Positions 2,170 through 44,834 of a stretch of 64,000 nt of DNA are shown here, one piece after another. Made by a program: the position numbers and the translations under genes. The stretch's first letter is position 1; each line of letters opens with the position of its first letter. The notes under the pieces were generated by a model that saw only the letters and a program-made list of their open reading frames with translations, ran no database searches and was not told the origin of the DNA. The stretch covers positions 310,001-374,000 of the forward strand of contig NZ_CP040332.1 in NCBI RefSeq assembly GCF_005576615.1, in the 5' to 3' direction. The stretch comes from Natrinema versiforme (GTDB taxonomy: Archaea > Halobacteriota > Halobacteria > Halobacteriales > Natrialbaceae).

Positions 2170-5100
2170 TCAGTCCTCCGTTCTTCGGTCCTCCGGCCGG
2201 CCGCCATCACTGGCCGTCGTGGCGGTCGAACCGGCACTCGCTGCGTCGAAGGAGACGTCCGGCCCGAGATACTTCGTCCAGACGACGAGCAGACTCGGGA
2301 GGACGAGTACGCTGGCGAGGAACGCGTAGACGATCGTCAGCCCGGTGATGATCCCGAACTGCTGGAGCGGCGGGAGGATGGCGAAGACGAGAACGCCGAA
2401 GCCGCCGACGGTCGTGGCGGCACTGCCAAGCAGTGCGCCGCCGGTTCCCGTGGTCGTTCGGGACATCGCTTCCCAGACCGATCCCGTCCGTTCCAGCTCC
2501 AGACTGTACCGTTCGCTCATGTGGATGCTGTAGGCGACGCCGAGTCCGACGGTGAGGCTCGTGATCATCCCCGTCATGACGTTGAACGGAATCTCGAGCA
2601 GATACATCGTCCCGAGAATCCACGAGACGCTGAACACGACCGGGAGCAGCGTCACCGCGCCGAGGGTCGCGCTCCCCTTCGTGATCCGGTAGGCGACCAT
2701 CAGGAAGGCGAAGACGGCCACGAGGGTAATCAGCAGGCTCTCGATGACCGTATCCATCAGCTGGCCTTGCACGATATCGAACGTGATCGTCTGTCCGGTC
2801 GCGGTGGCCTCGAGGCCGTTCCCGTCGATCCCGTCCGCGATGGCTCGCATCTCGCTCGTGACATCGCTCATGGACGCAGTGCCGCTCGTCGAGACGACCA
2901 TTCGAACGGCCTCGTAGTCGCCACCGGTGGACGAGTCGTCCACCGTGGATCCGTCGGAGCCCTCACCGCCGTCGACCCGATGGATGACGCTCCGCGCTTC
3001 GTCGGGGGCAGTGGCGAACAGGTCGTCGTACACCTGCTCGACGTTCCGATCGGGCACTCTGTCGCCGTCGGTATCGGCCGCGGTGAACGTCGCGTTGAAC
3101 GACTCGTTCTCGGCGGCGACCTGTCGCATCGTCCCGAGGGGGCTCTGGATGTCGGCCTCGCCGCTCGAGAGAGTGATCGCGACGTCGCTCTCGGCGGCCT
3201 CGCGTTCGGCCTCGGAGAGTCGCTGTAACGTCTCGGGATCAGTTACGTTCCCCGCGACGAGGATCTGGGCTTGGGAGTCCTCTCGGGCGAAGTTCTGGTT
3301 GACGAACTCGAGGTTCTCCTTCATCGAGTAGTCGCCCGGCTCCATCGGGCCGGGGAGGTTGCTCGTCCACTCCGGCGGATCCTCTGCGATGAAGTCCTCC
3401 TGGTTGAAGCTGGTGTCGACCTGTGTCGCGCCGTACGCACCGCCCGCGCTCACGAGAACTGCGACGAGGATGATGGCGAGTGGCATCCGTCGAGCCGCCG
3501 TCGAGCCGATAGACAGGAGTTGGCTGAATCGGCCGCCACCCGTCCCGAACGCGCGCTTTTTCCGATCGATGCCGCGAGACTCGAGGAGTTCATCGAGTTC
3601 GACTTTGAGCGCCGGGATCAGGACGCCGAAGACGAGCAGGGCGGCCGCAATACCGACCGCACTCACGATGCCGAACTCCTGTATCGGCGGGATCGGACTC
3701 GTGAGATTCGAGAGGAAGCCGATGGCCGTCGTTGCGGTCACCAGCACGAGCGCCACGCCGACGCCGGCCAGGGCCACCCGCATCGATCCGCGAGTGTCGT
3801 CTGCACCGTACGCACCGCCCGCTTGGCGCTGTTCGCGGTGGCGCATGAAGATGTGGATCGCGTAGTCGATCGAGAGCCCGATCAGCAGGACGGGCACCGC
3901 GATGAACATCTGGTTGAAGTCGATACCCGCCCAGCCCATGAACCCGAACGTCCAGAGGAGGACTGCGCCGATACCGACGAGGCCGAGGAAGATATCGAGC
4001 AGATCGCGGTACGCGACCAGCAGCGCGACGACGACGAACAACAACGCGAGCGGGCCGACGATCGCGATGCTGTCGCCCATCGAATTCTCGATCTCTTCGC
4101 CCATGATCCCGCCGCCGAAGACGATGGCCGCCGATCCGTCTCCCTCGACGTCCTCGTTCGCGATGGACTGCATGGCCAGTTGCGCGTCGACGACTGCGTC
4201 GGATACCGTTCCCCCTTGGCCGCCACCACCGTCGGTCTGATGAGTGACCAGCAGCATCGTCGCGTTCGCGCTCGTCGACCCCGGATCGTAGCTCGTCGGC
4301 ATGAACGACAGTCCGCTCATCTCGCCGGACGAGTTCTCACTCAGTACGCTACTGCGTGCCCGTTCGTACTCCGTCGCGTTCATCGACTCGAGCGCGTCGA
4401 TCTGTTCCTGCAGCGTGGCTGTCGAGGCGTTCTCTAGGCCAGCCCGTTGCGCTTCCAGTTGCGCGCCGAGTTCCGCTAGCCGCTCGGCCTGTGACTCGAG
4501 GTCCGTACTGCGCTGGTCGAGGGCCTCGTACTCGTCGGCGAGAACGCCTTGAGTGCCGCGCTGATAGGCCGCTTCGATCCCTGACTCGTTTTCGGCGTTT
4601 CTAAGCAGTCGCGTCGATTCGTTGAACGTCGCATACTGTGTCTCGCCGAGGTCGACTGACGAGTTCTCGTCGACTGCCTCGAACTGCACACGTGGCGATG
4701 CCGACGGGTCCTCCTGAAGCGTCTCGAGCGCCGCACGGAGTTCCTGCTGGGTGGCGTTCAGTTCCGCACTCCGCCGTTCCACCGCAGTGCGTTCGTCCTG
4801 TACAGTCGCGTTCAACTCCTCGAACTCCGCTGCCGTCGCCTCCAGTTCCCGCTGCTGTTCGCCGGTGAGAGAGGAGATCGCGACGAGATTCGCCACGCCG
4901 ACCGTCGGCTGTTCGTCGACGAGTGTCCGCTCGATCGTCCCGTTCTCGCGGAACGACTGTTGCAATCGGAGGTTCTCGACCATCGACTCCTGGGTGAGCA
5001 CGTTCTCACCCCTGAGTATCACTTGTGCTGCCGACGTGTTCTCTTGGCCGGTCGAGAAGTTCCCCTCGATGTACTCCAGTTTCTGCGCTTCCTCGCTGTC

Positions 5101-25727: not shown

Positions 25728-26375
25728 ACGCCCCTCTATCGATGTGTCTCTCGAAGTGTCTCTCGAAATCGGCTTTCGCTCGAGACGGGATCGTTCGGAG
25801 ACGTTCCGGAGAGAGCGAATGGACCGCGACACAGACACCCCTCTATCGATGTGTTCTCTCTATAGGGAGAGACGGTATCCGGACGTCTGAGCGGATAGTC
25901 GATCGAGATGAAAATCGTTCAATCCGTATCGGCCCGGAAATCGTCTGATACGCCTGTTCAGACCGTCTCTCTCCTCGAGGAATTTCGTGAAGTGGAAAGG
26001 CAAGGGAAACGACAGACTCACTGCAGTTCGGAACACATCGAACACATCGATAGAGGGGTGTGTGAGTGTATCGTCTAGAAAGCTAGAAGAAAGGAAGCAA
26101 ACGGAATCACTCAAATACCCGTGATCGATGTCCTGACTGTTCTTCTCCTGAAATCTCTCGAGTCATCGTTCTTCTCGCAGTTTCGCTATCGAGCGTACCC
26201 CCTCCCGCTCGAGGGACCAAACACATCGATAGAGGGGTGTCTGTCTCGCGACGGACTCGATCCTCGAACACATCGTCAGTCGTCGTTGCTATCCCGACGA
26301 CGTCCCGTCTCAGCCGAGTCGAAATAGCGCATATCATCCACTCAATCGGAGAAATACACATCGATAGAGGTGGGG
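25728..26375. repeat. Replication origin A: five family-A origin boxes around a central spacer
   Basis: The consensus box is ACACATCGATAGAGGGGTGT. Reverse-sense copies are at 25728-25747 and 25835-25854. Forward copies are at 26042-26061, 26221-26240 and 26356-26375 (the last ends GAGGTGGGG). The G-rich ends therefore point away from the 187-bp spacer 25855-26041, the layout of archaeal origin recognition boxes around an unwinding region. An extra AACACATCG half copy directly precedes the box at 26042. The last box ends 23 bases before the orc1/cdc6 gene. Confidence 0.85.
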
Positions 26376-26398
26376 CAACATTTTTCTTTCTCCTCTGT

Positions 26399-27838
26399 AT
26401 GGATCACCGTATGGACGACTTCGACGATCCTCGAGATGGATCGGGGACATCGAAGGATGAAGCGACGGAGCGGGTCGAATCCTCGTCTGATTCTACGATA
26501 CCCGAGACGACTCCCTCCTCGACCGGCTCGGCGACGGCCGGTGAGTCACAATCGATCGAAGAGATGTTACTGGAGTTCGACCAACAGGAGGGGCTCATTC
26601 GCGATCGGTCGCTTCTCGACCCGAATCACATCGTCTCCGAGGATCGGATCGTCGGTCGCGACGAGCAGTTACAGGAAGTAACCAAGATGCTCCGCGTCGC
26701 TCTCGGGGACAACCGGCCGCCCAATCTCTTTCTCTACGGCCCCTCCGGAACCGGAAAATCGCTGATCACGAAGGCCGTCTGTAAGAACATCAGCAAAATC
26801 TGCGAGACGCGAGACATTCGGTTCGGGACGATCGAAGTCAACTGCCAGGATCTCGATACCCTCGGCGTCGCCGTCTACGAACTCGCGAGTCGCGCGGCGG
26901 ACGAAGCGGCCGTCGAGGTACAGGTCCCGAAACACGGCGTCGCGACGAAAGAGAAGTGGGACGAACTCTATCGGATCGTCAACGAAAACTTCGACTCGGC
27001 AGTGTTCGTTCTCGACGAACTCGACATGCTCGTCGGCCGACGGGACAAGCAGGACCCAGCCTTCTCCCGTCTCCTCTATCAGCTCTCTCGAGCCGGCGCG
27101 AACAACGACCTCACTGCTCACGTCTCCGTCGTCGCGATTTCGAACGACACGAAAATGATGGAGTCCGTGGGGAGCCGCGCCCTGAGTTCCTTTACCCCCG
27201 AAGACGTCCACTTCGACGACTACGACGCGAACCAGCTCCAGTCGATTCTCCGTCGCCGGCGAGACGCCTTCTACGACGACGTTCTGGACGAGGACGTTAT
27301 CCCGCTGGCAGCGGCCTTCGCGGCCCAGACCCACGGCGACGCTCGCAAGGCGATCGATCTCGTTCGAGTCGCCGGTGAACTCGCGGAACGCGAAGGCGAC
27401 GAGCGCGTTCGCGAGGAACACGTCCGCGAAGCACAGGACAAAGTCGAGAAGAATCGGGTCCTCGAGGTCGTCCGCGGTATCAGCACACAGAAGAAGCTTT
27501 GTCTCTACGCGACGGCCGCCGTCGCTTCGGAGACGGACGACGAATCCGCTCGCAGCACGACTGGCTACCGCGTGTACCAGTTCCTCACGGATGCGATCGA
27601 CGCCGAACAGTACCATCAGGAGACCTACGTCAACAAGATGAAGGAAATGACGACGTACTCGCTCGTCGACTTCGAACGGCGGAGCCACGGCCCCAGTTCG
27701 GGGATGTTCCTCGAGTTCCAGTTCGGAGAGCGTCCCGAGACGATCCTCGAAACGCTTCGCGAGGATTCGCGCCTCGAAATGGTCTCCGTGGACGAGGTCT
27801 CGAGCGTCGTCAAAGCACAGGTTCGAAACGAGACGTAA
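26399..27838 (+). CDS. Orc1/Cdc6 replication initiator A
   Basis: AAA+ initiator of 479 residues that binds origin boxes and loads the MCM helicase. The ATG at 26399 follows an AT-rich CATTTTTCTTT element; the ATG at 26411 (MDDFDD) is an alternative. After a ~75-residue acidic N-terminal tail come the IVGRDEQL box, Walker A YGPSGTGKSLITK, Walker B VFVLDELDML, sensor 1 VVAISND and sensor 2 HGDARKAIDLVRVAGE, then a winged helix. The motifs all look intact. It lies within the family-A boxes and presumably recognises them. Confidence 0.95.
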   Translation: MDHRMDDFDDPRDGSGTSKDEATERVESSSDSTIPETTPSSTGSATAGESQSIEEMLLEFDQQEGLIRDRSLLDPNHIVSEDRIVGRDEQLQEVTKMLRVALGDNRPPNLFLYGPSGTGKSLITKAVCKNISKICETRDIRFGTIEVNCQDLDTLGVAVYELASRAADEAAVEVQVPKHGVATKEKWDELYRIVNENFDSAVFVLDELDMLVGRRDKQDPAFSRLLYQLSRAGANNDLTAHVSVVAISNDTKMMESVGSRALSSFTPEDVHFDDYDANQLQSILRRRRDAFYDDVLDEDVIPLAAAFAAQTHGDARKAIDLVRVAGELAEREGDERVREEHVREAQDKVEKNRVLEVVRGISTQKKLCLYATAAVASETDDESARSTTGYRVYQFLTDAIDAEQYHQETYVNKMKEMTTYSLVDFERRSHGPSSGMFLEFQFGERPETILETLREDSRLEMVSVDEVSSVVKAQVRNET

Positions 27839-28452: not shown

Positions 28453-29712
28453 TTACTGAAATTCGGCTAATGACGTATTTTCGTCGGTCGTATCGCCATC
28501 GAGTAAGTGCTCTTGAATGGAGTCGTGGATACCGACGTCGTCGAGGACCTCATCGAGTGCCGACAGGATGAGTTCGATGTCCATATCGAGTGTATACTCG
28601 CGATACGTTCCCCCGCGTCGGCCCTCGTTTCGTTCGGTGACCGAGACGAGTCCGAGCATGGCCAGTTCCGCCAGATGATCGCGCATCCGGCGCGGAACAA
28701 GCGGGTCCCGCCCGGCTCGCTGTGCGAAGTTGGTGTACCGGGGCCGGACGTCTCGTGAACGGACCGGAGTCTCGTTTTGGAGATGCAGCGTGAGCAGGGA
28801 GTACAACACGAGATGACCGTGCTGAGTGAGTCCGCTGATCCCCTCTTCGATCCGGCCGCGTTCCAGATCGTGACGGCCTGCCTCTACGTGGGTTTCGGCG
28901 ACGGTCGTCGTCTCGGCTTCCTCGCGAGCGAGATCGCCGGCTTTCATCAGGAGGTCGATCGACTGGCGAGCGTCGCCGGCGTCTTTCGCACCATAGGCGG
29001 CACACAGCGGGATCACTGCATCGTCGAGGACGTCGTCGTGAAACGCGACCGCCGCCCGCTGCTCGAGGATTTTCTGCAGATCGCTCGCGTCGTACGCGGG
29101 GAAATGGATCTCCTGTTCACAGAGCGAACTCTTTACCTTTGGGGAGAGGTCGTCTCGAAACGAGAAATCGTTCGAGATACCGATAATCCCAATTTTCGCT
29201 TCGGAGAGGTTATTGTTCGCACGCGCTCGCGGAAGCTGATAGAGGATCGAGTCGTCTTCGACGTGGTCGACTTCGTCCAGAACGATGAGATTGGTCCCGC
29301 CGAGATCGTCGAGGTCGTCCCAGAGCATCTCGTAGACCGTCGCTCGCGGGTAGCCGGTCGTACTGATCTGATTCGTTTCGTCTCGGAGTTCGTTGACCAG
29401 ACGCGTCGCGATCTGATACGAGGACGTGAGGCCGTCGCAGTTGAGGAAGGTGAGCCGGAGATCGATATCGTCGTACTGACTGGCGTCTTCCTCGAGGTGG
29501 GAAAGCAAATATCTGGTTGCGGCGGTCTTTCCGACGCCGGTCTTGCCGTAGAGAAAGACGTTGTTCGGTTGTTCGCCGTTGATCACGGGCTGGAGCGCAG
29601 CCTGATACATCTGGATTTCTTCGTCGCGACCGACGAGTTGCGCCGGTTGGTAATCCTCCCGCAGCGCGTCGCGATTCCTGTAGATTTCGGTGTCTCGTTC
29701 GAACAGGCTCAT
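28453..29712 (-). CDS. Orc1/Cdc6 replication initiator B
   Basis: AAA+ initiator of 419 residues. It starts MSLFERDTEIYRNRDALREDYQPAQLVGRDEEIQ, the short N-terminus typical of plasmid-type haloarchaeal Cdc6 proteins. Walker A is YGKTGVGKTAATRYL, Walker B LIVLDEVDHVEDD, sensor 1 IGIIGISND and sensor 2 AGDARQSIDLLMKAGD. The C-terminal winged helix is complete (MRDHLAELAMLGLVSVTERNEGRRGGTYREYTL). It points away from its origin boxes, which begin 46 bases upstream of the start beyond a GTTTTATAAACC TATA element, so self-regulation by box binding is plausible. Confidence 0.95.
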   Translation of the reverse strand: MSLFERDTEIYRNRDALREDYQPAQLVGRDEEIQMYQAALQPVINGEQPNNVFLYGKTGVGKTAATRYLLSHLEEDASQYDDIDLRLTFLNCDGLTSSYQIATRLVNELRDETNQISTTGYPRATVYEMLWDDLDDLGGTNLIVLDEVDHVEDDSILYQLPRARANNNLSEAKIGIIGISNDFSFRDDLSPKVKSSLCEQEIHFPAYDASDLQKILEQRAAVAFHDDVLDDAVIPLCAAYGAKDAGDARQSIDLLMKAGDLAREEAETTTVAETHVEAGRHDLERGRIEEGISGLTQHGHLVLYSLLTLHLQNETPVRSRDVRPRYTNFAQRAGRDPLVPRRMRDHLAELAMLGLVSVTERNEGRRGGTYREYTLDMDIELILSALDEVLDDVGIHDSIQEHLLDGDTTDENTSLAEFQ

Positions 29713-30335: not shown

Positions 30336-30531
30336 ATGTCGACAGAACCGACCTTCCTAACTCCGTTGCACCGCTCATCCACCGCCGACACTCGCTTTCG
30401 CGAGCCTCGAGCCCGAGTCATCATCTCGGTCCGACCTCGATCCGATCACGCGTCCACGGCTAGACGCTCTATCGCACTTTCGATGTATGGAGGGACCGTT
30501 CCCGTAATCAACCTCTGTATCGGTTTATGGG

Positions 30532-30557
30532 TTAGGCTAATTCGTTAGGCTAACTGG
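30532..30557. repeat. Two-unit satellite of the 13-bp repeat family
   Basis: TTAGGCTAATTCG and TTAGGCTAACTGG follow each other head to tail with no spacer. They are the clearest matches to the 13-bp repeat found in bulk at 42623-43510, 12 kb away. They lie between origin B and the end of the TPP-enzyme gene, with a GGTTTATGGG element just before them. Confidence 0.75.
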
Positions 30558-30670
30558 AATGTGGTCGGACGTAGTTCTCACTGGTTTCCGATGCCGGACT
30601 CACCCGCTTCGAGTTCTCGAGCGAACGGAAACAGGAACTCAGAGCGAAACCGAATTGCTTCCGTCGACGC

Positions 30671-35940: not shown

Positions 35941-37140
35941 ATGTCGGGCCCGACCAACTATTTCGGAAGTGAAAATGAAATCTTCCAAAACAAGGAGTTG
36001 TTGCAAGTTTCTCATCTACCGGATGGTGATCGAATCATCGGTCGCGAAGATGAACTCACAAATTTAGCGAACGCGATCAAGCCTGCGACGCGTGGGAATA
36101 CGCCGAACAATGTCCTCGTCTACGGAAAAACGGGAACTGGAAAATCTCTTTGTTCGAAGTTCATCACGAATCAGGCTGTGAATCAGGCCGCAAGCAATGA
36201 TATCTCGATTGGTGTCGCCTATATCGATTGTTTGCAGGAATCAACGGAAACGCAGGCCGTCCAATCTATCGGTTATCAACTGAACGAGCCGACGAAAACT
36301 GACGTATCAATTCCTCATTCCGGTCTTAGTACATCGGAATATTATCGCCGCCTCTGGCGAATTGTTGACGACCGGTACGATGTTGCCCTGATAATCCTCG
36401 ATGAAGTCGACAAGATTGAGGACGACGACATTCTTATGCAACTCTCTCGAGCGGTTGAGTCGGGGAAACTCACCAAAAGCACAATTGGCGTGATCGGGAT
36501 TTCGAATAAGGTTCGGTACAAGGAGTCCCTTGACGAGCGAATCAAGTCGAGTCTCTGTGAGCGCGAATATGTCTTCTCACCATATGATGCGAATCAGATC
36601 CGAGAGATACTACATTCGCGGTCTGATGCCTTTCATGAAGGTGTCCTCGATGAAGCCGTTATCCCTCGAGTAGCTGCACTCGCTGCTCGCGAGCATGGTG
36701 ACGCGCGAAAGGCGATCGACATTTTCAGATTTGCTGGAGAGATTGCCGAGGAAAATGATCACGATGCCGTCGCTGAGGAATGCGTTGAACAGGCCCATGA
36801 ACGTGAGGAAACCAGCCGTCTCGCTGAACTAATCTCGAAGAGTCCGAGCCATGCGAAACTGGTGCTTGAAGCAATGGCCTTCTTGTCTCAACAGAAAGGT
36901 GGCGATGATGCACCGATCACGACCAACGAAGTGTTTGATCTCTATAAGAGCCTCTGCGACCGTGATGGCTCTGACCATATCAAACTGCGCCGTGTTCGCG
37001 ATATTCTGTCTGAGCTTGAATTCCTATCGATAATTAAGCAAGAGCGTAAATGGGCGGGGAAGGGCAAAGGGAACTATATGGAGAACAGATTGATTGACGA
37101 TCCACAGGTCATTATCGCTGCTTGTAACGAATCTGAGTGA
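35941..37140 (+). CDS. Orc1/Cdc6 replication initiator C
   Basis: AAA+ initiator of 399 residues. Motifs: IIGREDELTNLANAIKP, Walker A YGKTGTGKSLCSKF, Walker B LIILDEVDKIEDDD, sensor 1 IGVIGISNK and sensor 2 HGDARKAIDIFRFAGE. The winged helix is at ~310-390 (ITTNEVFDLYKSLCDRDGSDHIKLRRVRDILSELEFLSIIKQ). Codon use is noticeably more A/T-rich than that of neighbours (many AAT, GAT, TCT), which suggests a different replicon or host as its source. It has its own box family directly upstream, and a dead IS6-type transposase lies just after it. Confidence 0.95.
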   Translation: MSGPTNYFGSENEIFQNKELLQVSHLPDGDRIIGREDELTNLANAIKPATRGNTPNNVLVYGKTGTGKSLCSKFITNQAVNQAASNDISIGVAYIDCLQESTETQAVQSIGYQLNEPTKTDVSIPHSGLSTSEYYRRLWRIVDDRYDVALIILDEVDKIEDDDILMQLSRAVESGKLTKSTIGVIGISNKVRYKESLDERIKSSLCEREYVFSPYDANQIREILHSRSDAFHEGVLDEAVIPRVAALAAREHGDARKAIDIFRFAGEIAEENDHDAVAEECVEQAHEREETSRLAELISKSPSHAKLVLEAMAFLSQQKGGDDAPITTNEVFDLYKSLCDRDGSDHIKLRRVRDILSELEFLSIIKQERKWAGKGKGNYMENRLIDDPQVIIAACNESE

Positions 37141-42528: not shown

Positions 42529-42622
42529 GAGGGACTCCTCGAGCGGGCTCGCGTTCGGATCGAGCGAGAGTGAGGACTCGATCCCCCGACGGAGTTCATA
42601 GCGTTCTGTTTCGGTTATTCCT

Positions 42623-43510
42623 GTAGCCTATCCAGACAGGCTAACTGATCAGCCTAATTCATTAGCCTTCCTTGTAAGGTGGTCCCTCTCTCCGAACCAG
42701 CTGCTTCCGAAGCTATCGATCGGCGACTCCGGGTGCGCGTTCTGCAGGAACTCGAGCAGCGAGCGTTACCGAAGAGCGAGGATTGTGTCCCGGTCCATGA
42801 CCGATCGAATCAGCCGATTCAGATGCGCGGACTCGCCCACCCATCGAGACCTCCTGTTCTCTCGGCGAGTTGGGTCCCTCGTTCGCATCGATCGGTGCTT
42901 TCGACGTGAGCACCGATCAAACGTGCACTCGATCGCGAGTACAACGATTAGGCTATCTCGTTAGGCCAACTAGTTATGCTTCCGAGTAGGGTTGGTTAGC
43001 AATCTGCTACCGCTGGCACACCGATGCAGCCTACCCGATTCGATTTCCCTGATCGAAATGCCTGTTGGGATAGGTAGGCAGGCCTGGCTGTTAGGCTTCA
43101 AAGTTAGTCCCACTGGTTAGGTCAGCTAGCTATTCTGGCTGGCCCGTCTGCATTTCGATTAGGCCTACTGAATAGGCCAACCGAACGGACTTCTCGAGCC
43201 GAGGGCCGGGTACGAACCCTCTCTGTGGGCTACTCCGTTAGTCTCCCCAGTCGGCCTAACCGAATAGGTGGGCCGAATAGCCTATTTAGAACCCCTTCCT
43301 CGGGCCCTCGGTTAGCTTCGTCGAGCCTGCCGACTGCTACTCCTCTCCGTGTAGGCTACTCGGCTTTACCCGTCTGTCTCTGCCCTCATCTTCCGGCTGG
43401 CGGGGCAACTGCTTGCCAAACCCACTAGTTAGTTAGTCTAACTGGTTGGCCTAACTCAATGGCCTACTGAGTGCGTATGGTGAAGTATTATATTCGGGAA
43501 GGCTAACTAA
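42623..43510. repeat. Array of degenerate 13-bp phased repeats upstream of the ParA operon
   Basis: Non-coding DNA holding many 13-bp units of form T-T-A-G-G/C-C-Y-A-A-C-T-N-R, arranged head to tail without spacers. Clear runs are 42623-42674 (4 units), 42948-42999 (4), 43078-43142 (5), 43159-43184 (2), 43225-43289 (5) and 43433-43471 (3), plus single units at 43351 and 43498. Runs one and two keep the same 13-bp register across the gap (325 bp, 25 units). A period of 13 excludes coding. The last unit lies between the TATA element (43484-43495) and the ATG of the ParA gene. Confidence 0.8.
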
Positions 43511-43515
43511 CTCGT

Positions 43516-44358
43516 ATGCTCACATATACGACCTACTCGGAGGCGGGCGGCGTCGGCAAGTCGACGATCGGTGCGGCGCTGCTCGAGGCTCACGCCAATC
43601 ACGGACTCGACGTGCTCGCGATCGATATGGACCAGCAAAACGGCTCGCTCACCTACCTCCTCGACGTCGACGCTCCCCGCGACGACAGTCAGGCGGATAA
43701 CATCGTTCGACACCTGATCGACCGACCGAAGGGTCCGCTCGAGGATCTCATTCACGAAACCGAATCCGGCTTCGATCTCCTCCCGAGCCACAACATGCTC
43801 GAGAACCTCGAGGATCTGCTCAATCGCGCACAGCAGATGGCCGACGATCTCGGCGAGGGCGACGACTTCGATCCCTACGACCGACTTCGGCAGGTGCTCC
43901 TCGAGTCCAGCATCCCACAGGAATACGACGTGATCGTCGTCGATCCCCCGGCCACCGCGGGCCCCCACCTCTACAACGCCGTGTCGGCCACACGGAGCTT
44001 AGTGATCCCGGTCGAGCCCACCGGCAAGGGAATGCAAAGCGTCCTCGGGTTAGAAGAGCTCGTCGACGGCCTCGAGGATCGACTCGAAGCCGAGATCGGT
44101 GTCCTCGCGGCCGTCCCGAACGGCGTCGGCCGAACGTCCGATCAGGAGCGGTACCTCACGGAGATCCGTGATCGGGGCTATCCCGCCCCGGTTGCGATCC
44201 GCGAGCGATCGTCGCTCTTCGAAGGCTGCTGGGATCAACAGTGTACCCCGCGACACTACGTCGAGGAATACCGCGACCGGCAGCGCGACCACGAGATGGA
44301 AACGCTCGAGAAGATCGATCAGTTGGCGACGGAGATCGAGGAGGTCGACGACCGATGA
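43516..44358 (+). CDS. ParA/MinD-family partition ATPase
   Basis: Protein of 280 residues. The P-loop is SEAGGVGKSTIGAALLEAHA at residues ~8-27. The signature lysine before GGxGK in classical ParA (KGGVGKT) is replaced by alanine, as in several haloarchaeal paralogues. Switch motifs are LAIDMDQQNGSLTYLL and VIVVDPPATAG. The gene follows a 0.9-kb repeat array and overlaps the next gene by 4 bp (ATGA). A role in segregating this replicon, with the array as centromere and the partner as adaptor, is the simplest reading but is inferred. Confidence 0.9.
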   Translation: MLTYTTYSEAGGVGKSTIGAALLEAHANHGLDVLAIDMDQQNGSLTYLLDVDAPRDDSQADNIVRHLIDRPKGPLEDLIHETESGFDLLPSHNMLENLEDLLNRAQQMADDLGEGDDFDPYDRLRQVLLESSIPQEYDVIVVDPPATAGPHLYNAVSATRSLVIPVEPTGKGMQSVLGLEELVDGLEDRLEAEIGVLAAVPNGVGRTSDQERYLTEIRDRGYPAPVAIRERSSLFEGCWDQQCTPRHYVEEYRDRQRDHEMETLEKIDQLATEIEEVDDR

Positions 44359-44834
44359 AGAAGGGCTCCGGGAGCGATCCGTTCGCGGAGGTCCAGGAGG
44401 AAGCCGAATCGGAACCGGACGCGAACGAAGAGCAGGCCGTCGACGACGAGTCCGATTCCGAACCGGCCCAGCCGGTCACTGAAGACATCGACTCTCAAGC
44501 GGAGTCCGAGACGGATGGCGATCAGAACGAGGAGACTACCGCCGACTCGAGCGAGGCGGTCATCGGAGAGCCGCCCCAAAACGGTGCTGACGACGGCGGC
44601 GTTCCGTGGGTTTACGTCCGGGATACGGTCAAGCAGGACCGCGAGATGGTCCAGTTCTATCTCCGGGATTACGTCGTCGACGCGGAGGACGATTTCGTCG
44701 ATGCGGTCAGCGACCGACTCGGGACCGACGTTTCGAAGACCGACGTTCGGGAAGCGGCCTACGAGGCGGCGATGCACAACGTCGACGAAGTCGTCGACCG
44801 ACTCGAGGCGTGGGGCTTCGAATCGGAGGACTGA
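44355..44834 (+). CDS. Acidic partner of the ParA-like ATPase (candidate centromere-binding protein)
   Basis: Protein of 159 residues from the ATG at 44355 inside the ParA stop. Residues 1-80 are disordered and extremely acidic (ESEPDANEEQAVDDESDSEP...). Residues ~85-159 are a compact helical domain (VPWVYVRDTVKQDREMVQFYLRDYVVDAEDDFVDAV...KTDVREAAYEAAMHNVDEVVDRLEAWGFE). I do not recognise a named family and see no ParB nuclease-like motif. Position and coupling suggest an adaptor between ATPase and DNA repeats. Confidence 0.8.
   Translation: MKKGSGSDPFAEVQEEAESEPDANEEQAVDDESDSEPAQPVTEDIDSQAESETDGDQNEETTADSSEAVIGEPPQNGADDGGVPWVYVRDTVKQDREMVQFYLRDYVVDAEDDFVDAVSDRLGTDVSKTDVREAAYEAAMHNVDEVVDRLEAWGFESED

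Follow-up and report, generated by a model that had tools for sequence, protein, structure and literature searches.

The window analysed here, a stretch of 64 kb from a haloarchaeal replicon of 413,865 bp (the genome totals 4.67 Mb), carries a gene for a ParA-type ATPase followed directly by one for a small acidic protein, hereafter the adaptor, with an array of 13-bp repeats upstream of the pair (Table 1). The ATPase matches AAA_31 in Pfam (E=2.1e-17) and PHROG 164, 'ParA-like partition protein' (E=8e-30), and its P-loop begins at about residue 9, with no N-terminal DNA-binding extension. The adaptor ATG (44355-44357) overlaps the parA TGA (44356-44358) by four bases, ATGA. A preliminary description had placed the adaptor start inside the ParA stop and reported no ParB motif, and both points held, the protein having no Pfam match. 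The open reading frame at 44355-44834 is a genuine gene and not a chance ORF, because diverged homologues, mostly 26-85% identical, retain the start overlap and the domain. The position of the TATA-like box, as read from the sequence, would fit leaderless transcription of parA. Three Orc1/Cdc6 initiator genes are found within 11 kb (window positions 26237-27838, 28453-29712 and 35941-37140), and the putative partition locus therefore lies near a likely plasmid replication origin.

Table 1 Features of the parA-adaptor locus and its surroundings, in window coordinates.
Feature	Position	Strand	Basis or remark
Satellite pair of the array's 13-bp repeat, TTAGGCTAATTCG TTAGGCTAACTGG	30526..30559	.	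Near orc1/cdc6 genes
Proposed centromere/operator, 13-bp repeat clusters, core TTAGGCYAACTNG	42604..43512	.	Lag-13 z=7.8 and motif hits
TATA-like box TATTATATT	43486..43494	+	~26 bp 5' of parA ATG; read from sequence, inference
parA, 280 aa	43516..44358	+	Walker-type partition ATPase, no N-terminal HTH extension
parA-linked adaptor gene, 159 aa	44355..44834	+	ATGA overlap with parA and conserved linkage in homologues
Conserved N-terminal peptide MKKGSGSDPFAE, residues 1-12	44355..44390	+	Proposed ParA contact
Acidic variable tail/linker, residues 13-80	44391..44594	+	AlphaFold2 pLDDT mostly 41-56
RHH-like domain (predicted), residues 96-143	44640..44783	+	AlphaFold2 model and structural alignment
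Third C-terminal helix, residues 143-152	44781..44810	+	Conserved L150, W153, G154 at/after its end

The adaptor opens with a near-invariant motif, MKxG[S/A]GxDPF, continues as an acidic tail that varies between homologues and ends in a C-terminal domain that is conserved. Residues 1-11 read MKKGSGSDPFA. Of 77 distinct homologues 76 have KxG, and an alignment of 65 sequences (A4) shows no variation at K2 or G4. Residues 13-80 vary in both length and sequence and are modelled by AlphaFold2 with low confidence, and residues 1-80 together carry a net charge of -26. The acidic, disordered tail of ~80 residues in the preliminary description is thus borne out in charge and low pLDDT, but the strong conservation of the first ~11 residues means it is not featureless.

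Only the small protein served as query in the homologue search, which kept ParA from biasing the linkage count. Members occur in 43/80 related genomes, and 86 of the 91 matching ORFs in the fetched loci start -4 to +2 nt from the ParA stop codon; among 77 distinct adaptor proteins, the overlap is of four bases in 66 and of one base in eight. The five ORFs left unplaced are two C-terminal pieces (56 and 59 aa), one 109-aa ORF, a copy that sits behind a ParA remnant (L074) and a fusion (L047). A scan of genome contigs, for which a broad alignment of homologues (A1) was too diverse to serve as seed, returned 72 adaptor loci, 71 of them with the same ParA-adaptor arrangement, and the sole exception (L161) still has a ParA frame upstream; these two sets overlap. 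Linkage is equally evident in reverse, with 83 of 84 ParA relatives (E<=1e-20) followed by an adaptor member. Two further adaptor copies are encoded in the same genome on a 492-kb replicon, both behind ParA, giving three copies of the system in the strain. Linkage is therefore shown, as is the domain layout, and homologues found mostly away from ParA genes, which would have refuted the preliminary description, are not what we observe.

The one ParA relative without an adaptor is chromosomal (L213 2898-3755, G035 chromosome); it has an altered P-loop region, SSEPNTGATT, and overlaps a lumazine-synthase-like gene, and it appears to have been repurposed. In the L047 fusion (2365-3270; G008:C6, ~57.0-57.9 kb) the adaptor C-terminal domain is joined to a different N-terminal domain, whose D...ExK-like pattern (RRVDVMLIKK...YAFEVKT) resembles a PD-(D/E)XK nuclease by eye, without a Pfam match. 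The fusion lies near the end of a 57.9-kb contig, with a parA-adaptor pair at the contig start.

The family is unnamed and, in the searches made, found only in haloarchaea: 47 of 393 genomes sampled from the phylum are positive, all from the same order. Matches occur in 122 plasmid records, the best from Natrinema, and in annotated plasmids they repeatedly read 'hypothetical protein' alongside 'ParA family protein', the adaptors being almost all 'hypothetical protein'. One homologue, in NZ_CP084883.1 (344345-344812), is annotated 'MSCRAMM family adhesin SdrC', an evident misannotation owing to its acidic tail. No adaptor relatives were detected in the phages and viral contigs searched, and a phage search with ParA gave no match at E<=1e-10. 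The small protein matches nothing in Pfam or PHROGs, and none of 64 aligned relatives has a convincing match in Pfam. Weak NCBIfam hits (to the exodeoxyribonuclease VII small subunit, E=0.015, and to SdrC/SdrD) fell far below cut-off and were put down to composition. We found no description of the family in the open-access literature searched, which does not exclude an earlier one.

An AlphaFold2 model of the conserved C-terminal domain (residues 83-159; pLDDT 88.9, pTM 0.73) comprises a strand-like extended segment at residues 97-104 (44643-44666) followed by helices at 105-122, 128-140/141 and 143-152. The top structural matches in VIA-align are TraM (Z 4.6, 51 residues, 2.8 Å) and CopG (Z 4.4, 42/42 residues, 1.6 Å), and most of the remaining matches are to the antitoxins DinJ, VapB and ParD or to TCP domains from plants. 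TraM, CopG, DinJ, VapB and ParD are all ribbon-helix-helix (RHH) proteins, and TCP domains are RHH-like. The domain is therefore predicted to adopt an RHH-like DNA-binding fold, a reading of the model without binding data that rests on the uniform kind of the matches and on the full coverage of CopG. In absolute terms the matches are weak (Z<=4.6), and a Z below 5 can mean merely a common arrangement. A Foldseek search with the domain model gave no match at E<=0.001 (the full-length model was uninformative there owing to its disordered tail, the domain alone giving the better result), and a sequence-profile search of solved structures gave no credible match, the best (E 0.017) being an unrelated chain. 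By DSSP the monomer model has no strand, and a dimer model was not obtained; the missing strand would be explained if, as in RHH proteins, it pairs only in the dimer. The domain is also net acidic (-13), which is atypical of DNA-binding domains, though usual for halophiles. The preliminary description of a ~75-residue helical domain thus held only in part, since the strand-like segment ahead of the helices fits an RHH fold better than a purely helical one. Nor did a fold with a clear unrelated function emerge, which would also have counted against it; the predicted fold is RHH-like, as in known ParB substitutes.

Autocorrelation reveals a strong 13-bp period in the 926 bp upstream of parA (z = 7.8 at lag 13; harmonics 26, 39 and 52), confirming the 13-bp repeats noted in the preliminary description. 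Within the window, 36 of the 69 matches to the repeat motif fall in 42590-43515, and the last repeat unit or units sit between the TATA-like box and the parA start. The satellite pair is a perfect tandem in an intergenic region 12 kb from the array, and a similar pair is found at C4:118322. Exact GCCTA-N8-GCCTA pairs, counted beyond the window by pattern search, number four in the 4.67-Mb genome, all on the window's replicon, with three inside the array and the fourth at window positions 30533-30550. The period recurs in homologues. Of 121 non-redundant upstream regions, 55 reach a peak z>4.5, and the top lag is 13, 26 or 39 in 53 of these; averaged over 65 loci, z at lag 13 is 3.71 upstream of parA, compared to 0.40 downstream of the adaptor and -0.10 farther upstream. 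A 13-bp period upstream of parA is therefore a trait of the family. About half of the loci have no clear period in the 600 bp upstream (in clade 6, for example, 0/9); their repeats may be located elsewhere, degenerate or differently spaced.

The sequence of the repeat changes with the adaptor. The unit GCCTAAC/TAGCCTA accompanies the adaptor strand MVQFYLR, GTGTTCA/ATGAACA accompanies RVPLFLQ, CTGTTACAG goes with RIEVHLR-like strands and ATCTTAGAT with TVQLHLQ. When pairs sharing any 18-mer are left out, the 5-mer similarity of upstream regions is 0.41-0.42 for domains 60-90% identical and 0.26 for those <50% identical, whereas in control regions the corresponding values are 0.28 and 0.27-0.28. 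The partial correlation with repeat vocabulary is 0.36 for the RHH domain (ParA controlled) and 0.15 for ParA (domain controlled), although these values ignore phylogenetic non-independence and are indicative only. ParA and RHH clades correlate strongly (r = 0.80), and the reader of the repeats is therefore not fully separable from ParA. The covariation itself is shown; it is what would be expected if the RHH domain reads the repeats, which we consider likely on this comparative evidence, in the absence of binding data.

The ParA motor departs from the usual P-loop, with EAGGVGKST carrying an alanine where the signature lysine would stand. In the 126 distinct linked ParAs whose P-loop could be read, the lysine never occurs; the residue is alanine in 108 and serine in 18. 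McdA likewise lacks it (SGGQGKT; PMC9178275), and its authors suggest the P-loop change underlies high ATPase activity (PMC6328274). Another ParA-like ATPase, on the 492-kb replicon (L214 3050-4407, replicon C3, ~270.5-272 kb), retains KGGAGKT and has a different acidic partner, a 135-aa protein whose gene it overlaps by ATGA. The C-terminus of this partner, RTIYIPDNVLDEME..., appears RHH-like by eye, and it may represent a second haloarchaeal adaptor family.

We consider it very likely (probability ~0.85) that the adaptor is the centromere-binding partner of a type Ib-like haloarchaeal plasmid partition system, a reading with comparative and structural but no biochemical support. In this reading, the adaptor would form dimers through its C-terminal RHH domain and use that domain to bind the 13-bp repeats ahead of parA, with cooperativity along the array; both steps are inferred, and the array-bound adaptor would mark the plasmid. 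It would probably also repress its own operon, as inferred from the last repeats, which fall after the TATA-like box and before the start codon. The long acidic tail may serve as a flexible tether, presenting the N-terminal peptide MKxGxGxDPF to nucleoid-bound ParA; this contact, likewise inferred, would stimulate ATP hydrolysis, and ParA gradients would then move plasmid copies apart. The ATPase step remains uncertain because the signature lysine is missing. The 'ParB substitute' with adaptor architecture of the preliminary description is thus supported, with the refinement that the element touching the ATPase is most likely the N-terminal peptide, the acidic stretch being a linker.

How far does the system conform to known classes? 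The adaptor has no ParB_N domain (no Pfam match), and none was found in this genome by a search that detects ParB_N in 11/14 control genomes. Two marks of type Ib systems are met: a ParA without an N-terminal DNA-binding extension followed by an adaptor gene, and a repeated centromere upstream of parA, present in many homologues and absent from control regions. For a third mark, an RHH fold in the adaptor, the model draws mostly RHH matches, none of them above Z 4.6. The deviant Walker A mark, a signature lysine (KGGxxK[S/T]), is not met by the linked ParAs. The system therefore probably runs like type Ib partition, itself an inferred function here, but with a ParA that fails one defining mark.

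Among the closest parallels is SegA/SegB of the Sulfolobales and relatives, in which a ParA-type gene overlaps a downstream RHH-protein gene and sites lie upstream of the operon (PMC5120986, PMC12284271). SegAB is, however, chromosomal, and SegB recognises dispersed palindromes whose core is AGA(g/c)TCT, whereas the pair described here is largely plasmid-borne with dense 13-bp arrays and has features of its own in the long acidic tail, the MKxGxGxDPF motif and a ParA without the signature lysine. The absence of SegB from the results of the profile search against solved structures leaves homology possible; the structures of SegB, ParG and omega were absent from the few chains given to VIA-align, so that comparison excludes nothing. 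The bacterial ParF/ParG (TP228) and delta/omega (pSM19035) systems similarly combine a small HTH-less ParA, a small RHH adaptor with a flexible N-terminal tail and repeats upstream of parA, but have shorter tails, other repeat lengths and a ParA with the signature lysine. The ParG tail carries an arginine finger (PMC9178275), and ParG and SegB/omega-type adaptors in general pair a DNA-bound RHH dimer with a ParA-facing tail (PMC9178275, PMC5120986, PMC12284271). No sequence similarity of the adaptor to ParG or omega surfaced in the searches made. By analogy, then, the adaptor very likely works like SegB, ParG or omega, but it has not been assigned to any known family. Canonical ParABS, with its CTPase/HTH ParB, shares the role and a ParA-contacting N-terminal peptide in ParB, but ParB_N is absent here. 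The AspA-ParB-ParA system of Sulfolobus pNOB8 is also an archaeal plasmid partition system with overlapping genes (PMC5120986), but has three proteins, including a winged-HTH centromere binder and a chimaeric ParB, against two at this locus.

Three other explanations deserve consideration. The adaptor could act chiefly as an RHH repressor of its own parA operon, the repeats being operators and segregation falling to another factor; indeed the repeats flank and overlap the promoter, and RHH proteins such as CopG are repressors. We nevertheless regard this as very unlikely, since the array reaches ~900 bp upstream, well past operator size, with a satellite pair 12 kb off, repression needs neither a conserved N-terminal peptide nor a long tether, and the genome has no ParB_N candidate. 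It is also highly improbable that the pair positions a protein cargo instead of DNA, as McdA/McdB do carboxysomes. In favour of this, McdA/McdB too combine a ParA-like ATPase without the signature lysine (A or S in the linked ParAs) and a partner gene with no ParB similarity (PMC6328274, PMC9178275); against it stand the RHH-like domain, the covarying repeat arrays and the plasmid matches, as well as a gel shift in which McdB showed no DNA binding (PMC6328274). Finally, small acidic ParA modulators such as ParC of Myxococcus pMF1 are known (PMC7843461), but there is little to commend an accessory modulator with ParA or an unseen ParB binding the repeats, as pMF1 also has a ParB whereas the search of this genome yielded none, ParA lacks an N-terminal extension that could house a DNA-binding domain, and the predicted RHH-like fold of the adaptor would supply the DNA reader.

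The reading as a centromere-binding partner therefore stands, and the adaptor is likely to be a new family in a role already known; its centromere is distinctive and its ParA unusual. A bolder reading, taken as one joint claim and towards which the balance tips only slightly, is that this is a haloarchaea-specific partition class in which a lysine-less ParA works with an RHH adaptor, bearing a conserved MKxGxGxDPF activating peptide on a long acidic tether, and with a 13-bp-periodic centromere; by diversifying together with the RHH strand, the centromere sequence would allow a cell to keep several such plasmids free of cross-talk, this strain having three copies of the system. The look of archaeal centromeres, both chromosomal and plasmid, is an open question (PMC5120986), and for haloarchaeal megaplasmids the family offers a testable answer, in which a single short locus holds adaptor, motor and centromere. 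The lysine-less ParA is a test case for the role of the signature lysine, and the several natural pairings of protein and repeat could yield a recognition code as well as an explanation of plasmid compatibility.
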